Assembly (NCBI GenBank): GCA_021782295.1
Contig: JAJXVC010000142.1
Span: forward strand, 1-5,115
Reading direction: 5' to 3'
Origin: a bacterium
GTDB taxonomy: Bacteria; Eremiobacterota; Eremiobacteria; Baltobacterales; Baltobacteraceae
DNA: 5,115 nt
Shown here: one piece after another, positions 95-5,115 of the stretch
Layout: each line of letters opens with the position of its first letter
Numbering within the stretch: the first letter of the stretch is position 1
Notes under the pieces: model-generated
The model's input: the letters and a program-made list of their open reading frames with translations, nothing else
Databases searched by the model: none
What the model was told of the DNA's origin: nothing
Program-made: the position numbers and the translations under genes

Positions 95-799
95 CTATCC
101 GCCGGCAACCCAGCGCGCGAAGAGAAAAGCGACGCCCGATGCGACGCCGCCGATCGCGAGCGTCTGAAGCGCGGCGAGCCATGGCGGAATCCCCGTCAAC
201 CGCCCCTTCACCGCGCCGAAGATCGCAAGCGCGATCCCGGTCAGCAATGCCGAGACGAGGAACGCTTCGTTGGAGACCGCGATCAGCGCGTAGGGCGCGA
301 GCGGAATCACCCCGCCGACGACATACGAAATGCCGATCGTCACGCCGGAGAGGATCGCGCGGTGCTTCTCCGGGCGTTCGAGCCCAAGTTCGAAGCGCAT
401 CATAAACTCGACCCAACGTTCGCGATCCGAACAGATCGTATCGACGGTCTGGTTGAGGAGGTCCTCGCTCAATCCGTAATGCGAGAGCACCTCGGCGACC
501 TCGGCACGCTCGGTCTCCGGAAGATGCTCGGCTTCGTAGTACTCGCGCGCGAGTTCGTTTTCGTAATGATCGCGGTCGGTGCGCGTTGCGAGATAACCAC
601 CGAGCCCCATCGAGATACCGCCCGCCGCTAACTCAGCGACACCGGCGGTCACGACGATATGCGATGCGGCGAGCGCTCCGGCGATGCCGGCGGCGAGTGC
701 GAACGGCACCGTCAGGCCGTCGGACATGCCGATGACGACATCGCGCAAGGTCGCCGTCGATGAAAGGTGCCGCTCTGGGTGCGGTGGCGTGGAGAGCAT
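95..799 (-). CDS. VIT1/CCC1-family iron/manganese transporter
   Basis: This is a 234-residue inner-membrane protein of the VIT1/CCC1 family, which moves Fe2+ (also Mn2+) out of the cytoplasm, usually against protons, to relieve metal excess. Helix 1 carries VVIGMSDGLTVPFALAAGIA (21-40). Helix 2 carries ELAAGGISMGLGGYL (56-70). A soluble metal-binding domain follows (about 75-145), ending in the family signature FMMRFELGLE (132-141). Three further hydrophobic segments lie at about 148-172, 176-196 and 207-232. Recalled EgVIT1 functional residues D43, M80, E102, E105, E113, E116, M149, M150 and E153 map with a constant offset of 16 onto D27, M64, E86, E89, E97, E100, M133, M134 and E137, so metal binding and the pore look intact. 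I chose the ATG at 799. The frame extends to 970, but that segment lacks family similarity and would invade the divergent gene. The Shine-Dalgarno is weak (AAAGCGGG). The family is certain; Fe versus Mn preference is not visible. Confidence 0.93.
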   Translation of the reverse strand: MLSTPPHPERHLSSTATLRDVVIGMSDGLTVPFALAAGIAGALAASHIVVTAGVAELAAGGISMGLGGYLATRTDRDHYENELAREYYEAEHLPETERAEVAEVLSHYGLSEDLLNQTVDTICSDRERWVEFMMRFELGLERPEKHRAILSGVTIGISYVVGGVIPLAPYALIAVSNEAFLVSALLTGIALAIFGAVKGRLTGIPPWLAALQTLAIGGVASGVAFLFARWVAGG

Positions 800-927
800 T
801 GGGGCCCGCTTTGCGTCGGCGCTCGCGGTCGCCTGCCGACCGATGTTCTTTCCGTCCTTGACGCACGCGCCGTCCTGTGAGAGAAGCAGAAAGAGACGCT
901 CGTTGCGTTTGGAGGAAGATTCCGAGT
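800..927. promoter_or_regulatory. Divergent intergenic region between transporter and pta operon
   Basis: These 128 bases separate two start codons that point away from each other, so promoters for both directions should lie here. On the plus strand TTGACG at 858-863 resembles a sigma70 -35 box. The matching -10 position (about 880-887, AGAGAAGC) is poor, so the promoter call is tentative. No convincing -35/-10 pair is visible on the minus strand. No clear inverted-repeat operator was recognised by eye. This stretch contains no GATC although the rest of the window is rich in it. Confidence 0.45.
911..916 (+). promoter_or_regulatory. Shine-Dalgarno GGAGGA deciding the pta start
   Basis: GGAGGA ends 11 bases before the ATG at 928. 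This supports 928 over the alternative GTG at 877, which lies upstream of the site, and over the second in-frame ATG at 937, which lies 20 bases from it. Confidence 0.75.
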
Positions 928-1860
928 ATGCCGGCCATGTTCCCCAGCTACGAAACGATTGCCGCCGCACTGGCGAGTTCCGCTGCAGTTCCCATGGCCG
1001 TCGTCGATGCAGGGGAGCGCCACGTTATCGAGGCCGCCTGTGCGGCGCGACGCGCCGGATTCATCGAGCCGATCTTCATCGGGAAGCGGGCCGAGATCGA
1101 AGCGATCCTCCACGATCGCGGGGAGAGCGATGCCTCGATCGTCGCCGTCGCAAGCGACATGGAGGCCGCCGAAGCAGGCGTTGCGGCGATCCAGGCGGGG
1201 GGCGCGCGCGCACTGATGAAGGGGCACCTCCACACCGATACCTTCCTGCACCCGATTCTCGCGCGATTGCGCACGACGAAACGGCTCTCGCACGCCTTCG
1301 TGATCGAGATGGAGCGCTACGCAAAGCCGCTGCTGCTCACCGACGGCGCGATCAACGTCGCCCCCGACCTCGCGACGAAAACGGCGATCCTCCAGAACGC
1401 CGTCGACTTTGCCGTCGCCATGGGGCTCGAAGCGCCGAAGGTCGCGTTGCTCTCGGCGGTGGAAACGGTGAAAGCGACGATCCCTTCGACGATCGATGCC
1501 GCGGCGCTCGTTGCAAGCGCCGCTCGCGGCGCCTTCGCACCGGCGATCCTCGCCGGGCCGTTGGCATTCGATTGCATCGTTTCGCGCGAAGCGAGCGCCG
1601 TCAAAGGTTTGAGCGGCCCGGTTCCCGGCGATGCCGATATCGTACTCGTTCCCGAGATCGTCGCGGGAAACGCCATCGTCAAAGCATTGGAGTACGGTGC
1701 GGGCGCAACGCTGGCGGGCATCGTCCTCGGAGCGCAGGTTCCCATCGTGCTGACGTCACGTGCCGACTCGGTGCAGACGCGCCTGCACTCCACCGCGCTC
1801 GCAGCCTACCTGTATCATCGTTCGAACCGGCAAGCGGAAGCGGCGACACCGGTGCGATGA
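928..1860 (+). CDS. Phosphate acetyl/butyryltransferase (Ptb-type Pta)
   Basis: This 310-residue soluble enzyme belongs to the phosphate acetyl/butyryltransferase family. It interconverts acyl phosphate plus CoA with acyl-CoA plus phosphate. Recognisable blocks are MKGHLHTD (97-104), the family's active-site region, then the HAFVIEM and LLLTDGAINVAPDL segment. These are followed by ALLSAVETV, GPLAFD (210-215), VPEIVAGNAIVKAL and the C-terminal ADSVQTRLHS (279-288), which contributes to the CoA/phosphate pocket in this family. The length matches stand-alone Ptb-type enzymes (about 300). There is no N-terminal MaoC-like hydratase domain, which is present in the bifunctional relatives, and no DRTGG domain as in long Pta. 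The family alone cannot separate acetyl from butyryl specificity. The phosphoketolase two genes downstream makes acetyl phosphate, so acetyl is the likely substrate. This is the first gene of the operon, and its TGA overlaps the ATG of the pump gene (ATGA). Confidence 0.92.
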   Translation: MPAMFPSYETIAAALASSAAVPMAVVDAGERHVIEAACAARRAGFIEPIFIGKRAEIEAILHDRGESDASIVAVASDMEAAEAGVAAIQAGGARALMKGHLHTDTFLHPILARLRTTKRLSHAFVIEMERYAKPLLLTDGAINVAPDLATKTAILQNAVDFAVAMGLEAPKVALLSAVETVKATIPSTIDAAALVASAARGAFAPAILAGPLAFDCIVSREASAVKGLSGPVPGDADIVLVPEIVAGNAIVKALEYGAGATLAGIVLGAQVPIVLTSRADSVQTRLHSTALAAYLYHRSNRQAEAATPVR

Positions 1861-4127
1861 CGGAGCTGGGCGAGGGCCTGACATCGATCGAAGCACAGGC
1901 GCGCCTCGCACGCGACGGCCCGAACGAGATCGCGCCGATTCGTGCGAATCCGACGCTCGATCTCCTGCGAAAATTTTGGGCGCCGATTCCTTGGTTGCTT
2001 GAAGGAAGCATCGCCCTCGCGCTGCTGACGCACCGTTCGAAGGACGCCGCTGCAGTCGCGCTGCTGCTTCTCCTCAACGTTCTCCTCGCATTCGTACAAG
2101 AACGTCGCGCGGAGCGCGCCCTCGATCTTCTGCGCGCGCGTATCGTCGCGCACGCAAAGGTTCTCCGCGACGGCGTTTGGGGAACGCTTGCATCGCGCGA
2201 ACTCGTCGTCGACGATCTCGTGCGCCTCGTCGTCGGCGACGTCGTTCCCGCCGATATCTCCATCGATCTCGGCGCGCTGCAGATCGATCGATCGGCGCTC
2301 ACCGGCGAATCGGTTCCCGAAGAGGTCGCTGCGGGGCAATGCGTCTACGCCGGTTCGACCGTCACCCGCGGCGATGCAACCGGTCACGTTATCGCGACCG
2401 CCGAACGCACGAAATTCGGAAAGACCGCTGCGCTGATGCGCGATATTCATACGACCGGAAGCGTACAACGCTTGGTGCTCGGCATCGTGCGTTCGCTGGC
2501 CGTCGCCGGGGCGATCGTCGTCTTCGCCGTCTCAAGCTATGCGTTGACGCAGCAGATCGCTCGCTCGGAGATCGTCGTCTTCGCGCTCGTCGTCGTTCTT
2601 GCGGCAATCCCCGTTGCGTTACCGGCGGCATTCACGCTTGCAACCGCGCTCGGGGCGCTCGAACTCTCGCGCAGCGGTGTGCTGGTAACGCATCTTGCCG
2701 CGATGGAGGATGCCGCTTCGATGGATGTCCTCTGTTGCGACAAGACGGGCACGCTCACGCTCGATGCGATTCGGGTCGATCGCAGCACCCCGTATCCGCC
2801 CTACACCGAATCGGAGCTCTTGCAATTCGCGAGCGCGACCTGCGATATCGCCGGGCAAGATCCCATCGATATCGCCGTTCTCGCAGCGGCGCGTTCGCTC
2901 GCAGCGGAACCGCTGCGCGTCGAGCGCTTGATTCCCTTCGATCCGCAGAGCAAAATCGCGCAAGCCTCGGTACGCTTTGCAGACGGATCGCAAGCGCTCA
3001 TCGCAAAGGGAGCGCCGAGTGCCCTCGGCGTCGCGTTCCCCTCGCTCGATGCGCTTGCAGCGCGCGGCGACCGTGCGATCGGCGTCACGATCGCGCGCAA
3101 CGCGCTCACCGTCGCGGTCGGTGCAATCGGCCTCGCCGATCCACCGCGCCCCGACGCAGCGCATCTCGTCGCCGCGATCGTCGCGCGCGGTGTCGAGGTA
3201 CGCATGATCACCGGCGATGCGCCCGAGACCGCGCTCCACGTCGCAGCGGAGATCGGCATTCCCTCGCTCTCGGTCGATGCATCGGTCTTTCCCGATCAGA
3301 AGCTGCAGATCGTCCAGCGCGAACAAGCGAAGGGTCGGATCGTCGGCATGACCGGCGACGGGATCAACGATGCGCCGTCGTTACGCGCGGCGAACGTCGG
3401 TATCGCGGTCTCCAACGCGACCGACGTCGCCAAGGCTGCCGCGAGTATCATCCTCACCCGTCCGGGACTCGACGGCGTTCTTGCCGCGATCGATACCAGC
3501 CGTCGCATCTACCAACGCATGCTGACCTACGTCGTCGCGAAGATCGTCAAATACTTCGAGATCGTCTTCGTCTCCAGTGCCGGCTTCTTTGTTTTCCGCC
3601 ACTTCATGCTCTCGCCGACGCTGATGGTGGCGCTCCTCGTGCTCAACGATTTTGCGACGCTCTCCATCGCGACCGACCGCGTCGCGCCCTCGCGCGGCTT
3701 CGATGCGTGGCACGTCGGCCGTTTGGTCGCGGCCTCGGCACTGCTCGCCGTCGTCACCGCTTCGTCGATCGTCGCATTCATTCTCTACCTCCACCGTGCC
3801 GCCGCACTCGATCTCGCGCAACTGCGCGGCGCAACCTTCGTGGCGATGGTCGGCGTCGGGCAGATCGCCTTACTCGCTCTGCGCGAACGCGACGCTCTTT
3901 TTCGGCAGCCCCCGTCGCGCTTTCTCGCGCTCGCGGTGGCCTTCGCCATCCTCGCTGCAGCGGCGATGGCCTTCTTCGGCGTGCTGATGCCGCCGTTACC
4001 ACCGACGGTCGTCGCCGAAGGCATCGCCTTCGTCGCGCTCGTCGGCATCCTCGTCCTCGCAATCAAACTTCCGATCTACCGCGCCTTCGGCATCGGGCGC
4101 GACCGCAATGCATCCACTCCGCTCTAA
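1857..4127 (+). CDS. P3A-like (plasma-membrane H+-ATPase type) cation-pumping P-type ATPase
   Basis: This is a 756-residue membrane pump that couples ATP hydrolysis to cation export, most likely protons. In order it has a short cytoplasmic N-terminus with the LARDGPNEI block, then M1-M2 (about 40-85). The actuator domain has TGES at 149-152, and M3-M4 carry the PVALP motif (252-256). The phosphorylation site is DKTGTLT with D295, inside LCCDKTGTLTLD. The nucleotide domain has FDPQSK (361-366) and KGAP (384-387). P-domain motifs are ITGD (451-454), VFPDQK (477-482) and MTGDGINDAP (498-507). About six C-terminal helices follow, with LND at 596-598. The MTGDGINDAP to SRRIYQRM stretch and the LND motif in M6 are typical of P3A pumps. 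D598 matches the proton-acceptor Asp of plant H+-ATPase (AHA2 D684). No C-terminal autoinhibitory domain is present. The nucleotide domain is compact, and M5 has Glu568 where AHA2 has Arg655 by my hand alignment. The frame is open upstream to 684, but that part is an Arg-rich shadow over pta. The start at 1857 overlaps the pta stop, implying translational coupling. Confidence 0.9.
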   Translation: MTELGEGLTSIEAQARLARDGPNEIAPIRANPTLDLLRKFWAPIPWLLEGSIALALLTHRSKDAAAVALLLLLNVLLAFVQERRAERALDLLRARIVAHAKVLRDGVWGTLASRELVVDDLVRLVVGDVVPADISIDLGALQIDRSALTGESVPEEVAAGQCVYAGSTVTRGDATGHVIATAERTKFGKTAALMRDIHTTGSVQRLVLGIVRSLAVAGAIVVFAVSSYALTQQIARSEIVVFALVVVLAAIPVALPAAFTLATALGALELSRSGVLVTHLAAMEDAASMDVLCCDKTGTLTLDAIRVDRSTPYPPYTESELLQFASATCDIAGQDPIDIAVLAAARSLAAEPLRVERLIPFDPQSKIAQASVRFADGSQALIAKGAPSALGVAFPSLDALAARGDRAIGVTIARNALTVAVGAIGLADPPRPDAAHLVAAIVARGVEVRMITGDAPETALHVAAEIGIPSLSVDASVFPDQKLQIVQREQAKGRIVGMTGDGINDAPSLRAANVGIAVSNATDVAKAAASIILTRPGLDGVLAAIDTSRRIYQRMLTYVVAKIVKYFEIVFVSSAGFFVFRHFMLSPTLMVALLVLNDFATLSIATDRVAPSRGFDAWHVGRLVAASALLAVVTASSIVAFILYLHRAAALDLAQLRGATFVAMVGVGQIALLALRERDALFRQPPSRFLALAVAFAILAAAAMAFFGVLMPPLPPTVVAEGIAFVALVGILVLAIKLPIYRAFGIGRDRNASTPL

Positions 4128-4142
4128 AGAAAGCGCGTCATC

Positions 4143-5115
4143 GTGACCGAGCACCCCATCGCCGAACAACCGACCTCCGATGAAATCGCCGCCGTCGACG
4201 CCTATTGGCGCGCGGCGAATTATCTCAGCATCGGTCAGATCTATCTTCTCGATAATCCGCTCCTGCGCGAGCCCTTGCGCCGCGAGCATATCAAGAAACG
4301 CTTGCTCGGCCATTGGGGCACATCGCCGGGGCTCAATTTTATCTACGCCCACATGAATCGCCTGATCTGCAAATACGATCTCGACGCGATCTTCATCGCC
4401 GGCCCCGGGCACGGCGGTCCGGCCGTCGTCGCAAACGCCTTTCTCGAGGGAAGTTACAGCGAACGCTACCCGAACATTCAGCACGACGTTGCGGGGCTGC
4501 GCACGCTCTTCCGGCAATTTTCCTTTCCCGGTGGAATACCCAGCCACGCATCGCCCGATGCGCCCGGCTCGATTCACGAAGGCGGCGAACTCGGCTACAG
4601 TCTGCTGCATGCATTCGGAGCGGCATTCGACAATCCGGATCTCTTCGTTTGTTGCGCCATCGGCGACGGCGAAGCGGAGACCGGCGCGCTCGCGACGAGT
4701 TGGCACGGAAATAAATTCCTCAATCCAGTTCGCGACGGAGCGGTGCTACCGATCCTGCACTTGAACGGCTACAAACTCTCGGGGCCGACGCTGCTCGCGC
4801 GTATTCCCGAAGCGGAGTTATGCATGCTCTTGCGCGGCTATGGTTACGAACCGATCGTGGTCGCGGGCGACGATCCGCCGCTCGTGCATCGCCTCTTTGC
4901 CGAGGCACTCGAGCGCGCGCACCGGATGATTCGCGCGATTCAGAGCGATGCGCGCAACAACGGTTTTACCGAGCGCGCCGCTTGGCCGGCGATCGTTCTG
5001 CAAACGCCGAAGGGATGGACGGGGCCGAAGATCGTCGACGGCCTGCAAATCGAAGGAACGCAGCGCGCGCACCAAATTCCGATCGGCGATTTCGAGAAGC
5101 ACCCCGAGCATCTCG
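4143..5115 (+). CDS. xfp: Xylulose-5-P/fructose-6-P phosphoketolase, N-terminal part
   Basis: This thiamine-diphosphate enzyme splits xylulose-5-P (and often fructose-6-P) with phosphate, giving acetyl phosphate plus glyceraldehyde-3-P or erythrose-4-P. The 324 codons present are about 40% of a usual ~790-residue enzyme; the gene runs off the window with no internal stop. Signatures are [15 protein letters not shown] (21-35), [11 protein letters not shown] (56-66), GPGHGGPA (87-94), [10 protein letters not shown] (126-135), [12 protein letters not shown] (143-154) and the cofactor/Mg2+ motif GDGEAETG (174-181). NGYK follows at 208-211. H57, H90 and H135 correspond, at a constant offset of 7, to the catalytic His64, His97 and His142 recalled from bifidobacterial enzymes. 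GTG at 4143 is the only common start between the preceding TAA (4125) and the conserved Y21. It is 15 bases after the pump gene with only a weak purine run (AAAGAAAG) upstream, so translation may depend on coupling. Xylulose versus fructose preference cannot be read. Confidence 0.95.

Follow-up and report, generated by a model that had tools for sequence, protein, structure and literature searches.

A P3A-like P-type ATPase gene between acetyl-phosphate enzyme genes in Eremiobacterota

Described counterparts and layout of the locus

The closest described counterparts of the pump studied here are the plant and fungal P3A H+-ATPases, for which the available text of a 2023 review (PMC10654040) gives an export of approximately 1 H+ per ATP and describes the roles of four residues, namely AHA2 Asp-684 as H+ acceptor, Asn-106 as its partner, AHA2 Arg-655, and Arg-695 of N. 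crassa Pma1. With respect to gene order, the nearest counterparts are pairs in which ackA follows or stands beside xfp, as in many of 120 xfp neighbourhoods, and clusters on plasmids of Caballeronia (SBC2), Rhodococcus AQ5-07 and Polymorphobacter, in which P3A genes stand in series with enzymes that make ATP, or feed its making, without respiration. Furthermore, one anaerobiosis table in the available part of PMC8575079 includes phosphoketolase (PA3613), P-type ATPase (PA1429) and ackA (PA0836) among the Anr-related low-oxygen genes of P. aeruginosa, and refers them to earlier oxygen/Anr studies. Universal stress proteins belong to the lxa locus of Burkholderia cenocepacia according to the available text of PMC9104464; the accessible portion of the lxa literature mentions neither acetate kinase nor phosphoketolase nor a P-type ATPase among the genes there. 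Neither the P. aeruginosa nor the lxa gene set is shown as one operon.

The pump of the present locus is like AHA2 and Pma1 in domain order, phosphorylation site, ATP-site motifs, M6 Asp, M2 Asn and fold. It differs from both in scoring under the cut-off of the P3A family model, in having only 756 aa, apparently without a long C-terminal extension, and in being encoded inside a metabolic operon, and from AHA2 also in carrying Glu at the place of Arg-655. Unlike the xfp-ackA pairs, the window's group has a P-type ATPase gene between pta and xfp, with overlapping genes, whereas the plasmid clusters have other gene orders, other partner enzymes and P3A proteins distantly related to that of the window. 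All parts of the locus fall in, or close to, known families. A published description of a pta-pump-xfp cluster was not found in the literature searched, of which few subscription papers formed part.

The window, i.e., the whole stretch of 5,115 nucleotides that was analysed, has three open frames in tight series on one strand, namely pta, the P3A-like P-type ATPase gene and the start of xfp. Its features are as follows.

95 to 970, minus strand: VIT1-family (PF01988) gene by profile match, longest frame, divergent from the operon
911 to 916, plus strand: GGAGGA, candidate ribosome-binding-site-like sequence, read from the sequence, 11 bases 5' of the pta ATG
928 to 1860, plus strand: pta, phosphate acetyl/butyryl transferase, 310 aa (PF01515, 104.6 bits; NF006045)
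1857 to 1860, plus strand: ATGA, in which the pump start codon overlaps the stop codon of pta, read from the sequence
1857 to 4127, plus strand: P3A-like P-type ATPase, 756 aa (PF00690, PF00122, PF00702, PF08282)
4143 to 5115, plus strand: xfp, phosphoketolase, first 324 codons from a GTG start (PF09364, 487 bits), incomplete because the window ends here

The coordinates of the three genes, the ATGA overlap and the 15 bases between the pump stop and the xfp GTG had been given correctly in the preliminary description. The pta product scored 315.2 bits against NCBIfam NF006045, above the cut-off of 282; note that this model is named after a bifunctional protein whose second half is missing from the window's Pta. 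Within the window, the phosphoketolase has XFP_N only before the sequence ends, and the xfp gene of a relative (L004) is full-length with XFP_N, XFP and XFP_C. The VIT1-family gene, of which the part from approximately 98 to 838 is common to most relatives, flanks the operon and is probably not part of it. Shared strand, tight spacing and conserved order were all found for pta, pump and xfp, which are presumably co-transcribed.

Conservation among close relatives

A search with the pump, taking one genome per species, gave 35 loci, and the close relatives of the pump (66-92% identity) came from Eremiobacterota or bacterial MAGs. The order pta-pump-xfp was found in 10 other genomes (L001-L008, L010 and L011), which rules out chance adjacency or misassembly. 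The junction of pta and pump was a 4-base overlap in all 10 of these relatives, written ATGA in five and GTGA in five. Pump and xfp likewise overlap by 4 bases in L001, L005-L009, L011 and L027; in L002-L004, L010, L067 and L068 they are 13-15 bases apart. In the more distant L009, L067 and L068, pta was not found beside the pump. The preliminary description had read the overlap as a sign of fixed stoichiometry rather than chance adjacency. The recurrence of the same order in 10 other genomes does place it beyond chance, but fixed stoichiometry was an overstatement, and the 4-base pta/pump overlap suggests translational coupling only.

The gene 3' of xfp was ackA in all 11 loci that reach far enough (L001, L002, L004, L005, L007, L009-L011, L027, L067 and L068); ppk2 was then present in eight of them (not in L001, L067 and L068), and a universal stress protein gene (usp) lay downstream in eight (not in L009, L067 and L068). 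Note that the contigs of L003, L006 and L008 end within xfp, and these loci are outside the count for ackA. L001 is the closest relative of the window, yet it is without ppk2; usp is present there. The downstream products of L004 matched acetate kinase PF00871, PPK2 PF03976 (with TIGR03709 above its cut-off) and Usp PF00582. Its acetate kinase scored 254.4 against TIGR00016, under the cut-off of 293.4, and retains the N-terminal NAGSSSLK motif and the blocks common to homologues. The genes 3' of the window in the source genome are probably the same, judging from these relatives; beyond the window, the pump would thus fall within three acetyl-phosphate enzymes (pta, xfp and ackA), commonly joined by PPK2 and a universal stress protein.

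The window-type pump adjoined xfp in all 11 genomes G001-G011. These genomes have 28 further P-type ATPase matches, and none lay within 10 kb of an xfp match when positions were compared by eye; because the contigs of these genomes are short, this absence of xfp neighbours is not absolute.

Pump class, candidate ion and possible fuel

The best NCBIfam model for the window pump was TIGR01647 (P3A proton pump) with 523.7 bits, under the cut-off of 615.5, and the pump is therefore called P3A-like here. The solved proteins nearest to it by sequence were AHA2 and Pma1. An AlphaFold2 model built with 24 sequences had a mean pLDDT of 84.4, and a Foldseek search of this model against the PDB placed Pma1 at the top (E 1.2e-49) along with AHA2 (E 2.5e-46, TM-score 0.87 by query length). 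A long C-terminal extension appears to be missing, since in the model the final residues directly adjoin the last predicted helix. Residues were compared in alignment A1, which comprises 24 rows of pump sequences, and the following sites were located.

2076 to 2078, plus strand: codon of Asn74, aligned with AHA2 Asn-106; invariant in A1
2739 to 2753, plus strand: DKTGT codons with the phosphorylated Asp295; D295, K296, T297, G298 and T299 invariant in A1
2934 to 2954, plus strand: PFDPQSK, nucleotide-domain motif, codons 360-366; P360, F361, P363 and K366 invariant in A1
3006 to 3017, plus strand: KGAP, nucleotide-domain motif, codons 384-387; K384 and G385 invariant in A1
3540 to 3560, plus strand: M5 codons 562-568 with Lys562 and Glu568, from alignments
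3648 to 3650, plus strand: codon of Asp598, aligned with the AHA2 proton acceptor Asp-684; invariant in A1

The P-type core, i.e., the Asp in DKTGT, TGE and the nucleotide-site motifs, was entirely present in the window pump, as were the Asp in M6 (Asp598) and the Asn in M2 (Asn74) known from AHA2. Invariant residues in A1 included TGE (T149-E151), F361, K366, K384, R406, D428-R431, T452-D454, K482, D501 and D505. In M5, Lys562 of the window's group stands where N. crassa Pma1 has Arg-695, and Glu568 where AHA2 has Arg-655; Arg occupies both positions in canonical P3A pumps of bacteria, for example L083 and L148.

These residues bear on the transported ion, which is presumably H+. The pump could instead move K+, Na+, Mg2+ or a metal, in which case the operon would serve ion balance and not proton export. 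The score under the TIGR01647 cut-off and Glu568 at the plant Arg-655 place point in this direction, as do L210 and L188, where MgtA-type pumps separate or adjoin xfp and ackA; in addition, the transport function of prokaryotic P3A ATPases was still to be determined according to the available text of the 2023 review (PMC10654040). On the other hand, the proton pumps AHA2 and Pma1 are nearest by sequence and by fold, Asp598 and Asn74 are invariant in A1, Lys562 occupies the fungal Arg-695 place, and pumps above the TIGR01647 cut-off were found in comparable clusters. We consider another ion unlikely.

The same alignment bears on the phosphoryl donor. It had been suggested in the preliminary description that acetyl phosphate might directly phosphorylate the pump, and the pump gene does adjoin genes for acetyl-phosphate enzymes. 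The SERCA pump can use acetyl phosphate in vitro. Against direct use of acetyl phosphate from the neighbouring phosphoketolase, the nucleotide-domain motifs are invariant in A1, and the 11 loci long enough to show it all carry the gene of acetate kinase, a potential competitor for acetyl phosphate, after xfp. Elsewhere, P3A genes adjoin PPK2 genes in stretches that showed no xfp, an arrangement that fits ATP as the shared currency. Direct phosphorylation is thus unsupported, and we regard it as very improbable. A pump dedicated to acetyl phosphate, its ATP site degenerate, was also considered and is not supported, the ATP-site residues being invariant in A1. ATP is presumably the donor in vivo, and ATP made from acetyl phosphate, together with polyphosphate, is the likely fuel, given that the pump keeps its ATP-site residues and that acetate kinase is encoded alongside it.

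Phosphoketolase yields acetyl phosphate at no ATP or redox cost; acetate kinase converts acetyl phosphate into ATP and acetate, Pta converts it into acetyl-CoA, and PPK2 makes ATP from polyphosphate. We give an even chance to the reading that, under energy or acid stress, the operon ties this ATP supply, which needs no respiration, to a proton exporter driven by ATP. Specifically, phosphoketolase would split sugar phosphate with Pi to give acetyl phosphate, from which acetate kinase would make ATP and acetate, and which Pta could divert to acetyl-CoA; in most relatives, PPK2 would add ATP from polyphosphate. The P3A-like pump would spend this ATP on H+ export and so hold cytoplasmic pH and membrane potential. 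The presumed trigger would be failing respiration, or acetate that is formed in an acid habitat and carries protons back in. A pump that exports approximately one H+ per ATP should be able to work against a steeper gradient than an F-type ATPase run in reverse, and the unit could therefore power H+ export when respiration fails. Judging from their names, the carriers L005 (MAG 15) and L006 (MAG 14) appear to be the MAGs so numbered that the available text of PMC8357290 describes from Cabin Branch, a site of acid mine drainage, and places in order UBP12 and family UBA5184. With these two names and the invariant Asp598 and Asn74, proton export against acid or acetate stress seems plausible; the preliminary description had put forward proton export upon accumulation of acetate or acetyl phosphate.

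Occurrence in other groups and on plasmids

Among 149 Eremiobacterota genomes, a pump match (1e-60) was found in 33, xfp in 79 and both in 32, so that pump and xfp presence were correlated across the phylum (Fisher p 9e-10, by a statistic that ignores kinship). The pump lay within approximately 5 kb of xfp in 19 of the 33 (G001-G011, G051, G070, G071, G085, G104, G105, G110 and G117), and 17 of these 19 were P3A-type. The pumps of G104 and of G105 contig C7 were rejected as P3A, L178 by model scores, and L178 and L209 by residues and tree. Note that the xfp places of G114 and G095, which have a contig-edge P-ATPase fragment just upstream (L181 and L208), were left out of the count. In G085 (L074), the order was shuffled to xfp-pump-ppk2-ackA-pta. 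Further Eremiobacterota P3A loci numbered 13, of which 12 had no xfp, ackA, pta or ppk2 nearby; the remaining one, L075, had ppk2 60 bases upstream.

In 185 Gammaproteobacteria, xfp was found in 43 and P3A matches (1e-120) in 28, with both in 11, a weak co-occurrence (p 0.049). The P3A match lay within 10 kb of xfp in seven of these 11, much more often than expected by chance (2e-12 in an idealised calculation that takes no account of kinship). The two genes were adjacent on the same strand in G523 and G610, and 1.6-8.5 kb apart in G528, G546, G509, G614 and G584, with G528 and G584 convergent. TIGR01647 confirmed three of the seven pumps, namely L148 (G523), L138 (G610) and L149 (G546). A pump near xfp was found in none of the six genomes having both among 149 Acidobacteriota, and in none of three among 151 Chloroflexota; of 142 genomes in an alphaproteobacterial sample, only 6 carried xfp. 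Likewise, xfp, ackA, pta and ppk2 were found at none of 21 pump relatives outside the group (L012-L026 and L028-L033; Proteobacteria, Thermoplasmata, Acidobacteria, Chloroflexi and others), where the flanks searched were sometimes short. The exact order pta-pump-xfp was not found outside the window's group in the neighbourhoods and gene-position tables of the sampled phyla. Hence, with regard to conservation across phyla as raised in the preliminary description, the exact order goes no further than close relatives, but a looser association in other orders does extend to other phyla.

Around the 120 xfp places, the number of P-type ATPases of any class dropped only slowly with distance: there were 10 in the first kb, another 9 between 1 and 3 kb, 8 between 3 and 6 kb and 6 between 6 and 9 kb. 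The link with xfp is not exclusive to P3A, because Mg-type (L188 and L210), Ca-like (L161, L111 and L178) and Cu-type pumps lie near it too. This clustering of several classes, and the accompanying usp genes, would fit a stress island whose genes are all switched on by one condition (low oxygen, acid or energy stress), with no direct metabolic coupling of the pump to the ATP supply. The anaerobiosis table with PA3613, PA1429 and PA0836 fits as well; since phosphoketolase, P-type ATPase and ackA stand in one P. aeruginosa table, their joint regulation has some precedent, as far as the available part of that source goes. However, the 4-base overlaps and the tight conserved series in the window's group exceed loose clustering, and tight pump-ackA or pump-PPK2 series recur elsewhere (Caballeronia and Polymorphobacter). 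No FNR-type site was found upstream of the operon either; the single match in the window, with 2 mismatches, was at 2928 within the pump gene, where 1.04 matches are expected by chance. We hold such an island possible, with doubt. In addition, no sigma-70-like promoter site scored across the entire window. An upstream block was common to the window, L001, L005-L008 and L011 and missing in L002-L004 and L010, and no known motif was recognised in it.

A plasmid search for P3A gave 15 records, of which 10 neighbourhoods were examined (H42 and four Klebsiella records were left out). In eight of the 10, xfp, pta/ackA or PPK2 lay within 8 kb of P3A, as follows.

Caballeronia plasmid (SBC2): pta-ackA-P3A-PPK2, on one strand
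Polymorphobacter plasmid: P3A-PPK2, with ackA further on
Thiodictyon plasmid: PPK2 nearly 7 kb from P3A, on the opposite strand
Lichenicola plasmid: P3A-PPK2
Rhodococcus AQ5-07 plasmid: xfp-aldolase-P3A
Aureibacter plasmid: pta-butyrate kinase 5.5 kb from P3A, on the opposite strand
Frondihabitans plasmid: xfp, then P3A
Paraburkholderia plasmid: ackA-pta on the opposite strand, with the pump annotated merely as HAD-IC P-type ATPase

The Acidiphilium and Rhodococcus WB1 plasmids had no xfp, pta/ackA or PPK2 within 8 kb of P3A. Conversely, in six plasmid xfp neighbourhoods, a P-type ATPase lay within 5 kb only in Methylobacterium nodulans and Sinorhizobium meliloti, and neither was annotated as a proton pump.

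From the recurrent placement of P3A genes beside xfp, ackA, pta and ppk2, a specific role can be proposed, namely proton export paid for by respiration-free ATP; this hints at the purpose of the little-studied bacterial P3A pumps. If true, the coupling of ATP supply and proton export would help to explain how some bacteria keep up pH and membrane potential once they no longer respire, and how a sugar breakdown that forms acetate can be tolerated in acid water. A far-reaching version would make prokaryotic P3A pumps emergency proton exporters with a dedicated substrate-level ATP supply, and the pump and enzymes of the group one coupled unit, possibly a membrane-bound assembly that turns acetyl phosphate into ATP or uses it directly at the pump; we rate this version as improbable.

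Finally, a tree of 62 pumps was made by a quick method and has long branches; 15 of 77 sequences had been left out beforehand (L066, L003, L019, L020, L024, L029, L080, L089, L141, L172, L151, L137, L092, L146 and L087). Label counts on this tree are biased because the non-P3A rows were chosen for lying near xfp. The P3A cases sit in separate parts of the tree, and the pumps near xfp in G051, G110 and G117 belong to the canonical P3A branch.

Flanks of the pta-pump-xfp cluster

The cluster is bordered on the pta side by a VIT1-family gene, which holds the same position in all ten relatives carrying pta-pump-xfp; beyond it, most of these relatives have genes for a 175-aa protein of unknown kind and a COX1-family oxidase.

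window 95-970, VIT1-family transporter gene, upstream of pta and divergent from it
window about 857-887, block resembling CTTGACGC..CTGTGAGAGAAGCAG, 5' of pta
L004 (a relative) 17206-17787, 194-aa protein at one edge of the cluster
L004 7327-7854, 175-aa protein at the other edge

In the upstream alignment of the window and its relatives, the block was common to the window, L001, L005-L008 and L011 and absent from L002-L004 and L010, and no match to a known site was recognised. Neither edge protein of L004 had a Pfam match, and both are kept, at these edges, in the close relatives whose contigs extend that far.

P-type ATPases in other neighbourhoods

Two other Eremiobacterota genomes (L210 and L188) have an MgtA-type pump in an xfp/ackA neighbourhood, each matching TIGR01524 above its cut-off.

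L210 6193-8811, MgtA-type pump between xfp and ackA
L188 1332-4034, MgtA-type pump after ackA
L213 7962-18334, Polymorphobacter plasmid island on one strand: cydAB, P3A pump, PPK2, then tkt, zwf, rpe, ackA and gnd

Copper-type P-type ATPases were also found near xfp in several groups (L092, L141, L151 and L172), that of L092 lying 44 bases from xfp. In the Polymorphobacter island, PPK2 is joined by a 4-base overlap.

Charges in M5 of the pump

window 3540-3560, M5 charge pattern

The transmembrane helix M5 carries Lys562, Lys565 and Glu568 in the window group, as opposed to Arg, Glu and Arg in canonical bacterial P3A pumps.
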